From: Desulfobotulus alkaliphilus
GTDB taxonomy: Bacteria; Desulfobacterota; Desulfobacteria; Desulfobacterales; ASO4-4
Assembly: GCF_007830435.1 (NCBI RefSeq)
Contig: NZ_VLLC01000001.1
Location: forward strand, 318,174 to 358,559
Reading direction: 5' to 3'
Length of the DNA: 40,386 bases
Shown in pieces: positions 13,604-26,478 of the stretch; the first letter of the stretch is position 1, and every line of letters starts with the position of its first letter. A program made the position numbers and the translations under genes. The notes beneath the pieces were generated by a model. That model was not told the origin of the DNA and searched no databases. It saw only the letters and a program-made list of their open reading frames with translations.

Positions 13604-16600
13604 ATGACATCCTTTATGCCCATTGCCATCATCGCCCAGACGGCCACCTTTCCCGACGCAGCCGATATTGCCACCTTCAGCCGTCATCTTATGGAAGGTC
13701 ATGTGGCCATCGGAAAAATTCCCGAAGAACGCTGGCCGGATCAGGCCCGCTTTCTTTCGGAAAGCCACCTTGCCGACCAAACCATCAGTACCATGGCAGC
13801 GCTGGCTCCCCTTCCGGACACCCTGCCCCCCTTTGCTGCAAGCAGCATCGGGAAGGAATGTTTTTTCGATCCCCTGTCCATACTCCTTGCCCACAACACC
13901 GCAAGGCTTCTGCAGGACTGCGGAGTGACAGAAGAGCTAAAAAGACGCACGGGGCTGATTACGGGCCTTCTCGGACTTCCCACGGACAGCATCACACGGC
14001 TTGCCCGCACATCCTTTGGAAAAAAATCATCCTTCAGGGATAAAGGGACAAGGGCGGGCTTCGGGGTTACGGGCAGCCCTGCCCTTCTTACGGCCCGTGC
14101 CGCAAATCTTGGCGGGCCGGTATTTACTGTGGATGCGGCCTGCGCCTCCTCCCTTGTGGCCCTCCGCCTGGCCTGCGACACTTTACGGGAAAAACGTGCG
14201 GACCTCATGCTGGCAGGGGGCATTTCCAGAGCCGAAATCTCCTTTCTCCAGATCGGTTTCACCCAGCTCAAAGCCCTTTCCCCTTCGGGCTGCTGCCGAC
14301 CCTTTGATGAAAGGGCCGATGGCCTTGTGGTGGGAGAAGGCTGCGGACTCTTTGCCTTAAAACGACTGGAAGATGCCCTCAGGCATCAGGACCCCATCAT
14401 AGGCGTCATCCGGGGTATTGGCCTGTCCAACGACATCGGCGGCAATGTGCTGGCCCCCAAATCCGAGGGACAGATCCGGGCCATGGCACAGGCCCTGTCC
14501 ATGGCGGGCATGGGGCCTCAGGATCTGGATGCCGTGGAATGCCACGGCACCGGCACACCCACGGGAGATCCCGTGGAAATCATCAGTCTTACAGAGATTT
14601 TCGGAAAAAACGGTGCCCAAAAACCCGTTCTGGCTTCGGTCAAATCCATGACCGGCCATCTGCTGACGGCCGCCGGAGCCGCAGGGCTCAGCCGCATGCT
14701 CATCTCCCTTGACCGGGATACCCTCCCCCTTACCCCGACCTTTGAAAAAGCGCCCCATGGAGGCCCCCTGGAAAAAAGCCCTTTCCGCATCCTCCGATCG
14801 CCTGAACCCTGGGAGAAAAAAGGAACAACACCCAGGGCGTTCGGAGTCAATGCCTTTGGATTCGGAGGCATCAACGCCCACATGATCGTGGAAGAAATGC
14901 CACCGGCACCGGAGCCCCGGCCCCTTATCCCCTCTTCTGGCAGGCCCCCATCCCTTGTCATCGTGGGTGCGGCACGCTACGACAAAAAAGAGGCTCCCAT
15001 TGCCCCCGGCCTCTTCCCCATCCCGCCGAAAGAAAGCGAAGCCATGCTGGCCGATCACAGGGCCCTGCTCCTCTGCGTAAAAAAAGCCCTGCGGGATCTG
15101 GACTGGGACAAAAGCACACGGGCCGCCACGGGCCTTGGGGTGCTGGTTGATTTTGATCCTGCCGCAACGGACTTCAGCCTTCGCTGGGCCTTTCCCGAAA
15201 AGCACGAAGCCCTTGCCCTCCCCCCTTTGGATGCGGACCATGTCACAGGTTCCCTCACCAGCATGGCGGCCAGTCGGGTGGCCAAGGTTTTCGGTCTGGG
15301 CGGCCCCTGCATCACCCTCTCCGGTGATGGAAAAACCACCCTTGAAACCCTGCACATGGCAGAGCGCTGTCTTGAACAGGGAGAATGCAAGGCCTTTATC
15401 CTTGCCGCCTCGGATATGCGCAGCCATTACCTGTCTCCCCTTTGCCGGGACCTTGAAGGCATGGCAGATGCGCCCTTCTCCGGTGCCATCTGCCTCATTC
15501 TCCGAAGGGAAGAAGATGCCATCCGCCGGGGTGACACCATCCTTGGCCGCATCTCTTCCGAAGATTGGGAAAAAGATATGGAAAAGGCTGCGGGAAAAAA
15601 GCTTTGGGAAACATCCGGCCATGCCCTGCTCCGCATGGCAGAAAAAAGCCTTCCTTCACCCATCACCCGGCAGGAAACAAGGCAGGCATCCCCCCCTGAT
15701 CCGAAATTTTCCGCAGCAGCCCGCCCCTCTCCTCCCGTACAGGTTTATCCTTTGTGCGCCAATTCAAAAGAAGAACTGATCCGGGCCTGCCGCCTTCTCC
15801 GTGAAGAAATAAAAAACCTTAGCCTTCTGCCCGAAGCCTGCACCCTTAGGGCCTGCCAAGCCTCGGAAGGAGAGTTCCGGGCAGCCATTCTGGCGGCGGA
15901 TATAAAACGGATTGGCTCCTGGTGTGCCATCCTTGAAGAGGCCATCGCCGCAGGCCGGACCCTCCTGCCTGCGGGCCGGGAAGGGGCCGCCTTCCTTGCG
16001 CCCTCCCTAAAAGAAGGCATCCGGGGAGAAACGGCCTTTGTCTATCCGGGCTCGGGCAATCATTTCCATGGCATGGGAGAAAGCCTTGCAAGGTTCTGGC
16101 CCCACATCATAAAGGCCGATGAAGAAAGCTTTTTTGATAAAAAAGCCATTCCTCCCCTCTCCCCGGATGATGGCCATGACCCGACCCCTGCCATTTTCGC
16201 ACAGGTACGCTATGGTCGCATCATGACCCGCATTGCCGAAGAAGAAGGCTTTGCTGCCGAGGCAATCATGGGCTACTCCCTTGGAGAAACCGCTGGCTTT
16301 TTTGCCACAGGTCTCTGGGAAAACCCGGAAATCATGCAGCAGCGTCTGCAAGGTTCAGAGCTGTTCACCAAAGAGCTTTCCGGTCCATGCAGGGCCTTAC
16401 GGAAGCAATGGGGCATCGGAGAAGAAGAGCCCTTTTACTGGGCGGCTGCCCTTCTTCCTGTGGAAATGGAAACACTGGACAGCCATCTTCCCGCCTACCC
16501 CAGACTGCGCCGCCTCATTGTGAATACCTTCAAAGAATGTGTGGTGGGCGGAGAAAAAAAGGATATTGAAACGCTGGCAGGGAATATGGGCCTTCGCCCC

Positions 16601-19498
16601 ATCTTCCTTGAAGGGGTCATTTCCGTACACTGCGATGCCCTGAAGCCCGCATACAAAGCCTATGAAAGCCTGCACACCTTTCCCGTTCATCCAAGGCCCT
16701 ACCGCTATTATTCCTGCGCCAGCGGAAAAACCTTTACTCCGGATACAAAGAGCTGCTGTACGGCCATTCTGGAACAAAACCTCCGGGGCTTTCATTTCCC
16801 CTCACTGGTTCTGAAGGCATGGGAGGACGGCGTGCGGATATTCGTGGAAATGGGACCATCGGACTCCTGCACCCGCATGATCCGCAGCATTCTTCAAGAC
16901 CGCCCCCATCTGGCCTTCAGCCTTTCGAAAAAAGATGAGGCGGAGGTCATCAGCATGGCCAGAGCCAGAGCCATCTGGCATGTGGCACCGGGTAAAAAAC
17001 AGACCATGACAGCCCCCCCTTTCTCCAGCAGGGTGCTGTACCAGTTCTCTTCCATTCAGGCAGAAAGCGCCCGTCTGCATCAAATGTACCTTGATGGCTG
17101 TGCCCAGCGCCTCCGAACCCTGAATACCCTGCTGGGCAAAGAAAAAACCGGTGCAGAAACCACTCCCCCGGCATCTTCCCTGCCTGCACCGGCACCCGCC
17201 TTTGACCGTGAAGCCTGCCTTGAATTTGCCATCGGCAAGGCAGAAACGGTTCTGGGCAAAGACTTTGCACCGGTGGACAGCTATCCTGTGCGGGTACGGC
17301 TTCCGGCCCCGCCCCTGCTGCTGGTGGACCGGATTCTCACCATTGATGCCATCAAGGGCCGCACCGGACCCGGAACCATCGTCACGGAGCATGAGGTAAA
17401 AGAAGACGCCTGGTATCTGGACGGAGGCCGCACCCCCTTTTCCATTGCCATTGAATCCGGTCAGGCCGATCTCTTCCTCTGCGCCTACATGGGCATTGAC
17501 CTTCAGGTGAAGGGTACAAGGGCCTACCGTCTTCTGGATGCCGTGGCCTCCTTCCACAGAAAACTGCCAAGGCCCGGTGAAACGGTGCGCTATGAAATCG
17601 AAATCCAGCGTTTTGTGCAGCAGGGAGAAACCCACATCTTTTTCTTCCGCTTTACGGGATTCATCGGGAAGGAAAAACTCATCACCATGGAAAAGGGCTG
17701 TGCCGGATTCTTTACCCCTGAAGAAATCCGTGATTCCGGAGGCGTGATCCCAAAGGAAAGATTCCCGGCCATTATGCCGGACAGGGGCATCGCCCCCGGT
17801 GCCATTCCCGTCCCCCGCTTTCCGGCCTCTTTTCTTTCCGAAGAAAGGATGGAAGCCCTGAGAAAGGGAGACGGGGAAAGGGCCTTTGGCCCCCTTTTCA
17901 AAGGAAAAACCATGGGAGAAAATATCCGCCTGCCCGGCGGCATGCTGGCGCTGGTTCACCGCATGAAGGAAATGGACCCCCAGGGCGGCCATTACGGCTG
18001 CGGCCTTGCCATTGGTGAGGCGGATATCCACCCGGACGACTGGTTTCTCACCTGCCACTTTTCCGATGATCCTGTCATGCCCGGCACCCTGATGTATGAA
18101 TGCTGCATGCAGACCTTACGGGTATACGTCATGGCCGCCGGATGGATACCGGAGGACAGGGCCTGCTCCTGGGAACCCCTGCCCGGTGCGGGCAGCCGCC
18201 TTAAATGCCGGGGGCCGGTAACGCCGGAAACATCAAAGGTCCGCTATGAAATCCATATCCGTAAAATGGATTTTGCTCCCCAGCCCTTTGTGCTGGCCGA
18301 TGCCCTCATGTACGCAGACGGCAAATGCATTGTCCGCTTTGAGGGCATGAGCCTCATGCTGGAGGGAACCGACAGGGAAGGTCTTGCCGCCATCTGGTCC
18401 GGATCAGGGGAAGAAAAACCCCTCTGGGACAAAGCAAGGCTCCTTGCCTTCTGCGATGGCCGTGCCGAAGATGCCCTTGGAAAGAGCTACGCCGCCTTTG
18501 ATCAGGGACGCTTTCTCGCCCGCCTTCCAAGACCTCCCTATCTCACGGTGGATGCCGTAAGCCATGCCCATCTCACGCCGGACCACATTACGGAAAAAAG
18601 CCAGATCACCGCCCTCTGGCATCCGGAAGCCACAGGCCCGGACTTCGGGCATGAAAGGAGCCCTCTCCCCTATGCCCTGCTTCTGGAAGCCGCCCTGCAA
18701 CCCTGCGGTCTCATGGCAGCCTGGATGGGGTGTTCCCTGAAAAGCGAAAGGGATCTTTTCTTCAGAAACCTCGGAGGAGAGGCAGCCATCCTTGCTCCTG
18801 TTTTCCGTGGAGAAGAAATTGAAACCCAAGCCACCCTGACCCGCTATGTGAAAAACGGCGATCTGCAGATTCTTTTTTTCGAGATTACCTGCTTTCAGAA
18901 AAAAAATCCCGTTTTACAGTGTGCCACCCACTTTGGGTTTTTCACCCGAGAAGCCCTTTCGGACCAGAAGGGAATGGCCGCGCCTGCGGGCCTTGAGCTT
19001 CCGGAAAACCTGAAAAGTATGGAGGCCATCCATGATTTCAGGATAAAGAGCCCCTTGCCCCATCCGGAAACAGACCCGGAGCAGGCCTTATGCATGGTCC
19101 ACCGCATCCTTTCCTTTGACGAAAGGGGCGGAAGCAAAGGCCTTGGGAAAACCCTTGCCGTCATGGATATTTCCGATCAGGACTGGTATTTCCACGCCCA
19201 TTTCAAGGATGACCCCGTATGCCCCGGCTCCCTTGGTCTTCAGGCGGTTTTCACCACCCTGAGATGGACAGCCTCCCGGATACTGAAAAAACCCATGGAA
19301 GATTTTTGTATTCCTCCCCAGAGCCACAGCTGGACCTACAGGGGACAGATCCGGCCCGGCAGTGCGGCCATGCACTGTGTTATCAGTGTGAAGGAAATTT
19401 GTATGGATGAAAGGGAAGGGCTGAGCTGTCAGGCTGCCGTATTCTGCGACGGTCTCTGCATCTATACGGCAGAGAATTTTCAGGTCAGCCTGACGTGA
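13604..19498 (+). CDS. PfaC/Pfa3-like polyunsaturated fatty acid or secondary-lipid synthase (KS-CLF-AT-DH-DH)
   Basis: This 1964-residue megasynthase has a ketosynthase at about 1-440 with intact Cys180 (DAACASS), His314 (CHGTGTPTGDP) and His352 (GHLLTAAG). A short KS-like segment (about 450-690) has no active Cys (SGDG at the nucleophile position), like a chain-length factor but well below full KS size. An acyltransferase (about 710-1130) has Ser892 in GYSLGE, the variant typical of PfaB-type AT domains. Two FabA-like dehydratase didomains follow (about 1200-1600 and 1605-1964), each with a degenerate first hotdog and an active second one (His1485 in HFSDDPVMPG, His1866 in HFKDDPVCPG). Such proteins extend and dehydrate acyl chains bound to the ACPs of a PfaA partner. 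AT fused into the PfaC-type protein resembles the myxobacterial Pfa3 layout. No ACP, KR, PfaA, PfaD or PPTase gene is adjacent. The product cannot be told from the sequence. The start codon is preceded only by a weak CCGGAAA. Confidence 0.88.
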   Translation: MTSFMPIAIIAQTATFPDAADIATFSRHLMEGHVAIGKIPEERWPDQARFLSESHLADQTISTMAALAPLPDTLPPFAASSIGKECFFDPLSILLAHNTARLLQDCGVTEELKRRTGLITGLLGLPTDSITRLARTSFGKKSSFRDKGTRAGFGVTGSPALLTARAANLGGPVFTVDAACASSLVALRLACDTLREKRADLMLAGGISRAEISFLQIGFTQLKALSPSGCCRPFDERADGLVVGEGCGLFALKRLEDALRHQDPIIGVIRGIGLSNDIGGNVLAPKSEGQIRAMAQALSMAGMGPQDLDAVECHGTGTPTGDPVEIISLTEIFGKNGAQKPVLASVKSMTGHLLTAAGAAGLSRMLISLDRDTLPLTPTFEKAPHGGPLEKSPFRILRSPEPWEKKGTTPRAFGVNAFGFGGINAHMIVEEMPPAPEPRPLIPSSGRPPSLVIVGAARYDKKEAPIAPGLFPIPPKESEAMLADHRALLLCVKKALRDLDWDKSTRAATGLGVLVDFDPAATDFSLRWAFPEKHEALALPPLDADHVTGSLTSMAASRVAKVFGLGGPCITLSGDGKTTLETLHMAERCLEQGECKAFILAASDMRSHYLSPLCRDLEGMADAPFSGAICLILRREEDAIRRGDTILGRISSEDWEKDMEKAAGKKLWETSGHALLRMAEKSLPSPITRQETRQASPPDPKFSAAARPSPPVQVYPLCANSKEELIRACRLLREEIKNLSLLPEACTLRACQASEGEFRAAILAADIKRIGSWCAILEEAIAAGRTLLPAGREGAAFLAPSLKEGIRGETAFVYPGSGNHFHGMGESLARFWPHIIKADEESFFDKKAIPPLSPDDGHDPTPAIFAQVRYGRIMTRIAEEEGFAAEAIMGYSLGETAGFFATGLWENPEIMQQRLQGSELFTKELSGPCRALRKQWGIGEEEPFYWAAALLPVEMETLDSHLPAYPRLRRLIVNTFKECVVGGEKKDIETLAGNMGLRPIFLEGVISVHCDALKPAYKAYESLHTFPVHPRPYRYYSCASGKTFTPDTKSCCTAILEQNLRGFHFPSLVLKAWEDGVRIFVEMGPSDSCTRMIRSILQDRPHLAFSLSKKDEAEVISMARARAIWHVAPGKKQTMTAPPFSSRVLYQFSSIQAESARLHQMYLDGCAQRLRTLNTLLGKEKTGAETTPPASSLPAPAPAFDREACLEFAIGKAETVLGKDFAPVDSYPVRVRLPAPPLLLVDRILTIDAIKGRTGPGTIVTEHEVKEDAWYLDGGRTPFSIAIESGQADLFLCAYMGIDLQVKGTRAYRLLDAVASFHRKLPRPGETVRYEIEIQRFVQQGETHIFFFRFTGFIGKEKLITMEKGCAGFFTPEEIRDSGGVIPKERFPAIMPDRGIAPGAIPVPRFPASFLSEERMEALRKGDGERAFGPLFKGKTMGENIRLPGGMLALVHRMKEMDPQGGHYGCGLAIGEADIHPDDWFLTCHFSDDPVMPGTLMYECCMQTLRVYVMAAGWIPEDRACSWEPLPGAGSRLKCRGPVTPETSKVRYEIHIRKMDFAPQPFVLADALMYADGKCIVRFEGMSLMLEGTDREGLAAIWSGSGEEKPLWDKARLLAFCDGRAEDALGKSYAAFDQGRFLARLPRPPYLTVDAVSHAHLTPDHITEKSQITALWHPEATGPDFGHERSPLPYALLLEAALQPCGLMAAWMGCSLKSERDLFFRNLGGEAAILAPVFRGEEIETQATLTRYVKNGDLQILFFEITCFQKKNPVLQCATHFGFFTREALSDQKGMAAPAGLELPENLKSMEAIHDFRIKSPLPHPETDPEQALCMVHRILSFDERGGSKGLGKTLAVMDISDQDWYFHAHFKDDPVCPGSLGLQAVFTTLRWTASRILKKPMEDFCIPPQSHSWTYRGQIRPGSAAMHCVISVKEICMDEREGLSCQAAVFCDGLCIYTAENFQVSLT

Positions 19499-20043: not shown

Positions 20044-20724
20044 CTACAGACTGGCTTCAAAAAAAGCTGCCACCGCATCCCAGTCAACCACATGCCAGAA
20101 GGCATCAATGTAGCTGCCCCTTTTGTTCTGGTAGCTCAGGTAATAGGCGTGCTCCCAGACATCCAGTGCCAGAATGGGTTTTCCCTGCTTTTCAACGGTA
20201 TCCATCAGGGGGTTGTCCTGATTGGCTGTGGATGTAATGAAAAGGGAACCGTCCTTTGCAACACAGAGCCAGACCCATCCGCTGCCAAAACGGGAAAGGG
20301 CCGCCTTCGTGAAGGCTTCTTTAAACGCATCAAAGGAGCCAAAGGATGCCTCAATTTTTTCTCCAAGCTTTCCCTCTGGCACACCACCACCATCGGGGGA
20401 CATCACCTTCCAGAAAAAGGCATGGTTATAATGGCCTCCCCCATTGTTGCGCACGGCATCGGGCAGGCGGCTGGCCTGAGCCAGCAGGACTTCCAGGGGC
20501 TGGCGTGCAAGGGGCGTGCCCTTTAGAGCTGCCACCAGATTATCAAAATAGGCTTTGTGGTGACGGCTGTAATGCAGCTCCATGGTTTCCGCATCAATAT
20601 AGGGTTCAAGGGCATCATAGGCGTAGGGCAGAGGATCAAAACGCAGATCCGATACACCGCCGTCCTGCGAGCAGGAAAGGGACAGAAGAGCAGGCAGCAC
20701 CATCAATAATATCCATTTTTTCAT
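20044..20724 (-). CDS. Exported Fe/Mn superoxide dismutase
   Basis: This 226-residue protein converts superoxide to oxygen and peroxide. The ligand pattern is complete: His in [11 protein letters not shown], His in [10 protein letters not shown], and Asp plus His in [11 protein letters not shown]. The Gly-rich GGGHYNH and the Gln in ANQDNPL are of the manganese or cambialistic type. The start is the ATG at 20724, with GGAGG eight bases before it. The first 20 residues ([18 protein letters not shown]) are a signal peptide ending in a cysteine, probably lipidated although the lipobox is imperfect. The enzyme should therefore act in the periplasm, unlike the usual cytoplasmic SodA/SodB. A MITE ends only 29 bp before the start codon, so any promoter must lie in or beyond it. 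Confidence 0.93.
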
Positions 20725-20753
20725 CACACATACCTCCATCGTTAAAAAATAAT

Positions 20754-20938
20754 GTAACTGTTCAGCACAGTTTTTCAAGTACCATACCTGCAAGACAGAT
20801 GCACAGGCCCCAGGCTATTTGCCCGTGACGCGAAACGATTGCAATGTCACTTGCAAATAGCCATGGAGCCTTACAGCAGTACGAAGCTGCTGCAATTACA
20901 GCATTGGCAGTTCAGAAAAAACTGTGCTGAACAGTTAC
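20754..20938. mobile_element. MITE-like element, family 1, copy D (185 bp) with 8-bp target duplication
   Basis: It begins GTAACTGTTCAGCACAGTT and ends AACTGTGCTGAACAGTTAC, perfect 19-bp inverted repeats. Both flanks read AAAATAAT directly at the junctions (20746-20753 and 20939-20946), an 8-bp target duplication. GTAA ends and 8-bp duplications are hallmarks of the IS66 family. No reading frame of note lies inside. It separates two genes on the same strand. Confidence 0.92.
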
Positions 20939-24815: not shown

Positions 24816-26478
24816 TTAACGCCCCGCCATCATGGCTGCCACATCTTCTTCCACAGAAGATATGGCTTTGATATCAAACTTTTCCACCAGCACCTTTGCC
24901 ACAGCCGGAGACAGGAAAGCCGGGAGTGTTGGACCAAGGCGGATTCCCTTGACTCCAAGGGCAAGGAGAGCCAGAAGAACGGCAACGGCCTTCTGCTCAT
25001 ACCATGCAATATCATAGGATATGGGCAGCTCATTAATATCTTCTAAGCCAAATACTTCCTTAAGCTTCAGGGCAATGACGGCAAGGGAGTAGGAGTCATT
25101 GCACTGGCCTGCATCCAGAACCCTTGGAATACCGCCAATATCTCCTAAGTTCAGTTTATTGTAGCGATACTTGGCACATCCCGCCGTAAGGATGACCGTA
25201 TCGGAAGGAAGACTTTCCGCCACTTCCGTATAGTAGCTGCGGCTTTTATGCCTTCCGTCACAACCGGCCATGACCACAAAACGGCGGATGGCACCGCTCT
25301 TTACGGCCTCCACCACCTTATCTGCCAGAGCCAGCACCTGATTGTGGGCAAAACCCCCCACAATACTTCCCTCCTCAAAGCTGACCGGAGGTGCACAGCT
25401 TCGGGCCTTTTCAATGAGGGGAGAGAAGTCCCTTGTTCCACCTTCGGGCCGGTCGGCAATGTGCACAGCCCCTTCATAGCCCACAATACCTGTGGTAAAG
25501 AGACGGTCCAGATAAGTATTGTCCTTTTTTAAAGGCACAAGACAGTTGGTGGTAAGAAGTACGGGACCGTTAAAGGATTCAAACTCATCGTTCTGGTGCC
25601 ACCATGAACCACCGTAGTTCCCCACAAAATGAGGATATTTTTTAAAGGCCGGATAGTAATTGGCGGGCAGCATCTCTCCGTGGGTATAGACATCGATGCC
25701 CGTACCCTCGGTCTGACGGAGAAGCTCTTCCATATCTTTAAGATCATGGCCGGAGATCAGAATACCGGGATTTTTGCCCACGCCGATATTCACCTCACTC
25801 ACTTCAGGGTGACCATAGGTTTTCGTGTTGGCCTCATCCAGAAGGGCCATGGTGGTTGACGGCCATTTCTCCGGCCTTCATCACAAGGCCAGTCATGGCA
25901 TCCACGGACAGCTCCTTTGTGGTAGAAGCCAGAGCTTCCATCATGAACTCGCCTATTTCATCCTTATAATACCCCAGAACCGCCGCATGTTCAGCATAAG
26001 CAGCAATGCCCTTAAGACCGATGGTCAGAAGCTCCCTCAGGGAACGGACGTCTTCGTTCTCCGTCAGCAGAACGCCCACTTCCTTAGCCTTTTCCCCAAA
26101 GGCCTCAGCAGAAGCCGTCCAGATAGCTGCCTCAGGAAGAGAATCCGCACAATCCTTTCCGTTCTTTTCACGGTAAAGATCGCTGAATTTAACGGCAAGG
26201 CTTTCCCTGCGGCGCAGGCCTTCTTCGATCATGGAGCTAAAACGGGCCTTATCCCAGTTGGCATTGGTAATGGTGGCAAAAAGACCCTCCATGATAAAGG
26301 TGTCATGGCTTCGGTCCGCAGCCCCCATTTCCTTTAGTTTTTCCCCATAAACGGCCATACCCTTCAGAACAAAAATCAGAAGATCCTGAAGATTCGCCGT
26401 TTCTTCGGGTTTTCCGCAAAAACCCCTTACCGTACATCCGGTGTTTTTCATGGTTTCCTGACACTGAAAACAGAACAT
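24816..26478 (-). pseudogene. hcp: Hydroxylamine reductase / prismane protein Hcp, split by a one-base frameshift
   Basis: The protein is encoded in two overlapping frames, 25834-26478 (N-terminal 214 residues) and 24816-25850 (C-terminal 344 residues). Joined, they give a normal Hcp of about 550 residues. The N-part holds the cluster motif CFQCQ...GCTVRGFC. The C-part holds all expected hybrid-cluster ligands: His in ISGHDLKD, Glu in THGEMLP, Cys in [24 protein letters not shown] and AGQCNDSY, and Glu/Lys in WYEQKAV. The join AACCACCATGGCC should read AACACCATGGCC, so one extra C near 25851-25857 breaks the frame. Since no other damage is visible, this is either a very recent mutation or a sequencing error. 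Hcp reduces NO or hydroxylamine in nitrosative stress. GGAGGG precedes the start. Confidence 0.85.

Follow-up and report, generated by a model that had tools for sequence, protein, structure and literature searches.

Within a stretch of 40,386 nucleotides from Desulfobotulus alkaliphilus (the window, that is, the whole stretch of DNA that was analysed), we have located a gene that probably encodes a working PfaC-type subunit, a pfaBC fusion, of a dispersed Pfa synthase that feeds a Pfa-Ole pathway. The synthase would probably make medium-chain polyenes destined for hydrocarbon. Fusions of ketosynthase (KS), chain length factor (CLF), acyltransferase (AT) and dehydratase (DH) have already been published; the halved CLF of the present PfaC is the new aspect, and no published description of such a state was found in the literature searched.

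The open reading frame is real, as had been proposed from the sequence, and runs without interruption from 13604 to 19498 on the plus strand of the window, encoding 1964 amino acids plus a stop. Collinear orthologues occur in the two sister species (86% identity in G001 and 88% in G002), and the frames of the three genus species are open over 1964, 2000 and 2054 aa. The KS occupies residues 1-440 (13604..14923, plus strand, as are all features that follow) and is matched by PF00109 and PF02801; Pfam places its N- and C-domains at 6-380, followed by a second, partial KS N-domain and by three FabA (PF07977) stretches, whereas the same scan finds no AGPAT domain. In an alignment with 20 other PfaC, the KS triad (C180, H314 and H352) is in register with the relatives. 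A half CLF (residues about 446-672, 14939..15619) and a linker (residues 673-800, 15620..16003; dN/dS 0.39-0.48 over 671-800), both delimited by alignment, precede a PfaB-type AT (residues 801-1135, 16004..17008), in which the GYSLGE motif at 890, with its serine, and the VHC motif at 1008-1010 are again in register. Region 799-1097 scores 64.7 bits against the PfaB family model TIGR02816 (NCBIfam), under the cut-off of 144.3, and residues 796-1097 match the PfaB crystal sequence 9ry8 with an E value of 1.8e-19; both Trp residues that are fully conserved in PfaB are present by a count on that alignment. The C-terminal portion (residues 1201-1964, 17204..19495) is a tandem FabA-like DH region with pseudo-DH halves, matched three times by PF07977, with HF histidines at 1485 and 1866. 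The KS triad, the AT motifs, the 9ry8 match and the FabA stretches bear out the earlier assignment to a PfaC/Pfa3-like protein with a fused PfaB-type AT. Furthermore, the KS, which had been judged active in appearance, and the built-in AT with GYSLGE carry motif residues that match those of the aligned relatives.

For the dehydratases, both of which had been judged active in appearance, the histidines of both are present. At residue 1880, the acid position of the second FabA motif, all three genus members nevertheless have Q, compared with E in relatives. In one relative, G071, it is the first dehydratase that has Q at the corresponding position. The pseudo-DH halves of PfaC are reported to be without the histidine (PMC4882568). 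In our alignment these halves retain the conserved E, and on both counts a working site may pair a DH histidine with a pseudo-DH acid. This picture of the active site draws on the FabA structure.

The 19 other window proteins scanned contain no ACP, KR, ER or other KS domain, in agreement with the earlier note. They comprise signalling and chemotaxis proteins, DnaA, a superoxide dismutase, a cytochrome c552, a split hcp, an amidotransferase, a DUF4168 protein and three proteins without a match. The gene of the Prismane family (hydroxylamine-reductase-like; 24816-26478, minus strand) is present as two overlapping ORFs that cover profile positions 1-173 and 176-512, and the split is a frameshift or an assembly error. 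Near pfaC, both in the window (20044-20793, minus strand) and in G002 (L061:899-1579), there is a gene for an Fe/Mn superoxide dismutase whose N-terminus resembles that of a lipoprotein.

The suspected truncation of the CLF is confirmed: residues about 446-672 represent its first half, in an identical state in 3 of 3 genus genomes. An alignment with 18 PfaC from other genera shows that the window protein has retained the N-terminal half of the CLF, though with a shortened start, and that the C-terminal half is absent. A profile of the N-terminal half scores 70.5 bits on the window PfaC, where it matches over positions 68-235 of its 286; one of the C-terminal half has no match beyond the KS itself in any of the three genus members. 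The latter profile was built from 13 outside relatives that have an AT and a KS-AT spacing of 585-689 aa, and gives 150.7-290.4 bits on these same 13 when each is left out in turn. Of the other 13 outside PfaC, eight score between 29.8 and 169 bits, and five give no more than traces (1.0 to 8.9 bits). The C-terminal half is therefore retained at least partly in 21 of 26 PfaC outside the genus, with weak traces only in the remaining five, which fall in two families: G090 and four f59 genomes (G105, G246, G270 and G323, all four of those examined of f59). Complete absence is confined to the window genus among the 29 PfaC examined.

Spacing and domain counts give a similar picture. From the end of the KS to the start of the AT there are 378 aa in the window PfaC and 377 in both sister species, compared with 585 to 689 aa in 13 of the 14 outside relatives that have an AT and 464 in the distant G105. 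PF02801 matches once in the window PfaC; of twelve relatives scanned, nine have two matches and the remaining three, G090, G105 and G128, have one. The half domain clusters with CLFs and not with KS domains (18 other CLFs and the two genus copies; SH-aLRT 100) in a tree made by a quick method, with long branches and no PfaB included. When the half CLF and linker were used as a query against 389 genomes, 222 matched; of the matches listed, those that span the whole query come from the three genus genomes alone. AlphaFold models of half-CLF-linker-AT and of KS-CLF, each made from a two-sequence alignment, reached mean pLDDT values of 31.5 and 29.5 and were discarded.

As the C-terminal half leaves only weak traces in G090 and the four f59 genomes, a reduction of the CLF unique to the window genus was rejected; this half has been eroded more than once in the order, most severely, among the PfaC examined, in the window genus. 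The f59 loci (L076, L115, L116 and L117) encode a more distant type of PfaC, with a KS about 35% identical, an AT, and traces only of the C-terminal half, so that, as judged from these sequences, f59 is another lineage in which the CLF is reduced.

What remains of the CLF is constrained. Pairwise dN/dS values (Nei-Gojobori counts on the three genus sequences) are 0.22-0.27 in the KS, 0.30-0.33 in the half CLF (residues 450-670), 0.15-0.21 in the AT and 0.19-0.21 in the DH, so that all four domains of the window PfaC are under purifying selection; the half CLF, which has the highest value of the four, is constrained less than its neighbours. Among the three species there are no indels within the half CLF, whereas length differences occur in the linker that leads to the AT and in the AT-DH segment. 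Columns that are otherwise conserved have changed in all three genus species at 16 of 48 positions in the half CLF, 25 of 139 in the KS, 46 of 258 in the DH and 1 of 18 in the AT. This faster change in the half CLF, its dN/dS and the values of 0.42-1.59 in the short AT-DH segment (residues 1131-1200) make partial relaxation possible. The idea that the KS has evolved specially fast to offset the lost half of the CLF was set aside: its stem branch is long, yet the rates of change in the KS and DH columns are equal.

The gene had been described as an orphan that might work with a distant PfaA/PfaD set, and only the second part of that description survives. In the window genome (G000; 4.0 Mb in 95 contigs, 98.12% complete, 0.67% contamination), pfaD and, immediately after it, pfaA stand on contig C38, both above their NCBIfam cut-offs (PfaA 1229.7 bits versus 1010.1; PfaD 576.5 versus 449.25). 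PfaA contains a KS, an AT, three ACPs, a KR and a PS-DH match. The genome has one PF01648 protein (285 aa, contig C8), a PPTase-superfamily candidate with weak family scores. The search recommended earlier, for pfaA with tandem ACPs, pfaD and an Sfp-type transferase, has thus returned the first two and one candidate for the third, and because pfaD, pfaA, this PPTase candidate and candidate oleA-D (see below) are all in the genome, the gene is no orphan. The further suggestion of a decayed duplicate finds no support: a search with the window protein recovered no second PfaC in the window genome, its six other matches being KS-type or AT regions, no full pfa cluster with its own PfaC was found elsewhere in that genome, and dN/dS in the KS, half CLF, AT and DH spans 0.15-0.33. 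Contig C7 (24877-36195, minus strand; loci L019 and L020) encodes a 3762-aa megasynthase with a nitronate-monooxygenase-like N-terminal part, three KS-type domains, an AT, an ACP match with repeated ACP-like stretches, a KR and a DH; on its predicted domains this is a second secondary-lipid or polyketide system.

Contrary to the earlier expectation that dispersed pfa genes would be unusual, dispersal of pfaC is common in the order. Among the matches listed, 18 of 23 near-closed genomes have pfaC either at a distance of more than 40 kb from pfaD or, as in G322, on a different contig. In the other five (G067, G071, G280, G292 and G302, the last at about 36 kb) it lies within 40 kb. Near-closed denotes a genome that has a match and comprises no more than 9 contigs (8 genomes come from one search and 15 from another); for 15 of the 23 the position of pfaC is that of a CLF match, and G234 and G279 were left out of the linkage count. 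Family f35, whose PfaC examined are without an AT match, contributes 15 of the 23, and outside this family pfaC is apart from pfaD in 6 of 8 near-closed genomes, again among the matches listed. All three genus genomes carry pfaC on one contig and an adjacent pfaD-pfaA pair on a different one. In G055, pfaC itself is in two distant pieces.

In the loci surveyed, pfaC usually has an ole gene beside it, which stands directly 3' of pfaC in 19 of 23 evaluable loci (oleA in 18 and oleB in one, L066), and at several of these relatives' loci the remaining ole genes also follow in order. The evaluable loci are the 26 fetched minus two of the window genus and minus L109, where the contig ends; they were taken from score lists and not at random, and in L079 pfaC is represented only by the end of its AT and by its DH part. 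Since L059 is from outside the order, the count within it is 18 of 22. In L063, oleA lies beyond the locus end, and a gap separates it from pfaC in L111 (about 0.85 kb) and L113 (about 1.6 kb); L064, L068, L076 and L078 have no ole gene directly after pfaC. The locus from outside the order (JADFZL010000015.1), from a Candidatus Riflebacteria MAG, presents pfaD, pfaA, pfaC, oleA, oleB, oleC and oleD in a row. Six loci (L072, L073, L109, L110, L112 and L113) encode PfaC-like proteins that consist of KS, CLF and the first FabA-like DH only, with no real AT match, and oleA is next in the five of these whose contig continues.

In the window genome, candidate oleA, oleB and oleC are on contig C2, about 300 kb from pfaC (oleA about 306 kb), and oleD is on C9; all four match genes that stand together after pfaC in relatives. 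They are named as candidate oleA-D partly from family labels and partly from gene order in these relatives. The NCBIfam and PDB matches of the oleA candidate are labelled '3-oxoacyl-ACP synthase III', the match of the oleB candidate is labelled 'haloalkane dehalogenase' and lies below its cut-off, and the oleC candidate, with scores of 589 and 582, falls short of the 850 and 900 that the two olefin beta-lactone synthetase models require. Between candidate oleA and oleB, in the region L093:6349-17201 (C2:24349-35201), there is a gene for a 602-aa curlin-repeat protein. An oleA match is present in all three genus genomes, and that of G001 (C4:37230-38276, L107) contains one in-frame TAG, which could represent decay, error or recoding. 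No ole match lies beside pfaC in either of the window-genus loci L060 and L061, so that in this genus the Ole link rests on orthology. The proposal that the gene might serve a different secondary lipid is made plausible by the candidate ole genes and by the usual place of an ole gene directly after pfaC in relatives.

Several known systems share features with this arrangement. A pfaBC fusion with the layout KS-CLF-AT-DH2 belongs to secondary lipid synthase Types C and I, and Type K resembles I; these types are reported mainly from Deltaproteobacteria, and such fusions were described as early as 2011 (Shulse and Allen 2011, PMC3098273). The window gene has in common with Types C and I, as described there, the domain order, the fused AT and the PfaA and PfaD partners, and differs in its halved CLF and in a position outside the pfaA-pfaD cluster (PMC3098273). 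Pfa3 of terrestrial myxobacteria, as reported, likewise combines the KS-CLF-AT-DH order with a fused AT, with a separate PPTase locus in some; unlike it, the window protein has no AGPAT match and only half a CLF, and pfa1, pfa2 and pfa3 are consecutive in the myxobacteria (PMC8436480). PfaB of Shewanella baltica (PDB 9RY8) has a related AT, with GYSxGE and both Trp residues, preceded by a short KS-like domain; it is described as KS'(1-255)-linker-AT, with a flexible and probably non-catalytic KS' (PMC12895367). PfaB is a separate protein, however, and the window search matched its AT and not KS', so the likeness is one of layout only; the grouping of our half domain with CLFs comes from a tree without PfaB. 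The proposed pathway also has a parallel in Geobacter bemidjiensis, in which Pfa and Ole genes occur in one genome, as in the window genome, but are described as standing in tandem and making hentriacontanonaene, whereas the window genome has them scattered (PMC4882568).

In the pathway that we favour, the PPTase would prime the ACPs of PfaA, which would carry the growing chain, while the KS and FabA-type DHs of the window PfaC would act on these ACPs in trans. PfaD would perform the reduction and the PfaB-type AT a late acyl transfer. OleA would then draw off a medium-chain polyenoyl-ACP, and OleB, OleC and OleD would convert two polyenoyl chains into a long polyunsaturated hydrocarbon. In Shewanella, OleA is reported to take 16:4 from the Pfa ACPs (PMC6463001). 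By analogy with the short KS' of PfaB, the half CLF may have been retained as a non-catalytic scaffold beside the KS and the AT, a role to which we give about even odds.

A Pfa synthase so dispersed might instead supply long-chain PUFA for phospholipids, with the ole genes using ordinary fatty acids or fading. PfaA, PfaD and PfaC are all encoded in the genome, the AT is of the PfaB type, which is reported to determine the final PUFA in gamma-proteobacteria (PMC12895367), and oleA is unlinked to pfaC in the window genus, with the in-frame TAG in the G001 match. We nonetheless think this unlikely, given the ole gene directly after pfaC in 19 of 23 evaluable loci and given that what is halved here is the KS-CLF unit, to which the last elongations are attributed (PMC12895367). 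It is highly improbable that the window PfaC serves the 3762-aa megasynthase of C7 and not PfaA: although that protein is encoded in the same genome, with its three KS-type domains, AT, ACP match, KR and DH, it brings its own domain set, and the same type of pfaC adjoins pfaA and pfaD in several relatives' loci. Nor is it at all likely that the gene is decaying and the lipid no longer made, for the frames are open in three species, dN/dS is 0.15-0.33, the KS and AT motifs are intact and pfaA and pfaD have been retained; the truncated CLF, the E-to-Q change in the second DH and the long stem branches in the tree are what would speak for it.

A further alternative, compatible with the Pfa-Ole reading, concerns the half CLF itself, which could be a mere leftover linker beside a KS that is homodimeric, as ordinary KS enzymes are. 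In favour of this, the C-terminal half is absent here and reduced to weak traces in G090 and 4 of 4 f59 genomes examined, and changes at conserved columns are almost twice as frequent in the half CLF as in the KS or DH. Against it stand a dN/dS of 0.30-0.33 and the lack of indels among three species in which the linker and the AT-DH segment do vary, and we consider the idea possible but doubtful. The N-terminal half of type II CLFs contains the gate residues and a large share of the dimer face. A bolder proposal, which we advance as a speculation and hold to be rather unlikely, is that the half CLF is a natural minimal chain length factor, in which the N-terminal half alone would provide the KS-pairing face and the chain-length gate, and loss of the C-terminal half would tune the synthase to release medium-chain polyenes for OleA.

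The survey suggests that, in this order, pfaC is found beside an ole gene more often than together with pfaA and pfaD, a pattern that should aid the annotation of 'orphan' pfaC genes. A conserved half CLF in an otherwise complete system makes the requirement for the CLF testable by domain swaps with full-length relatives, and so addresses the question of whether product length is set by the CLF or by the PfaB-type AT.
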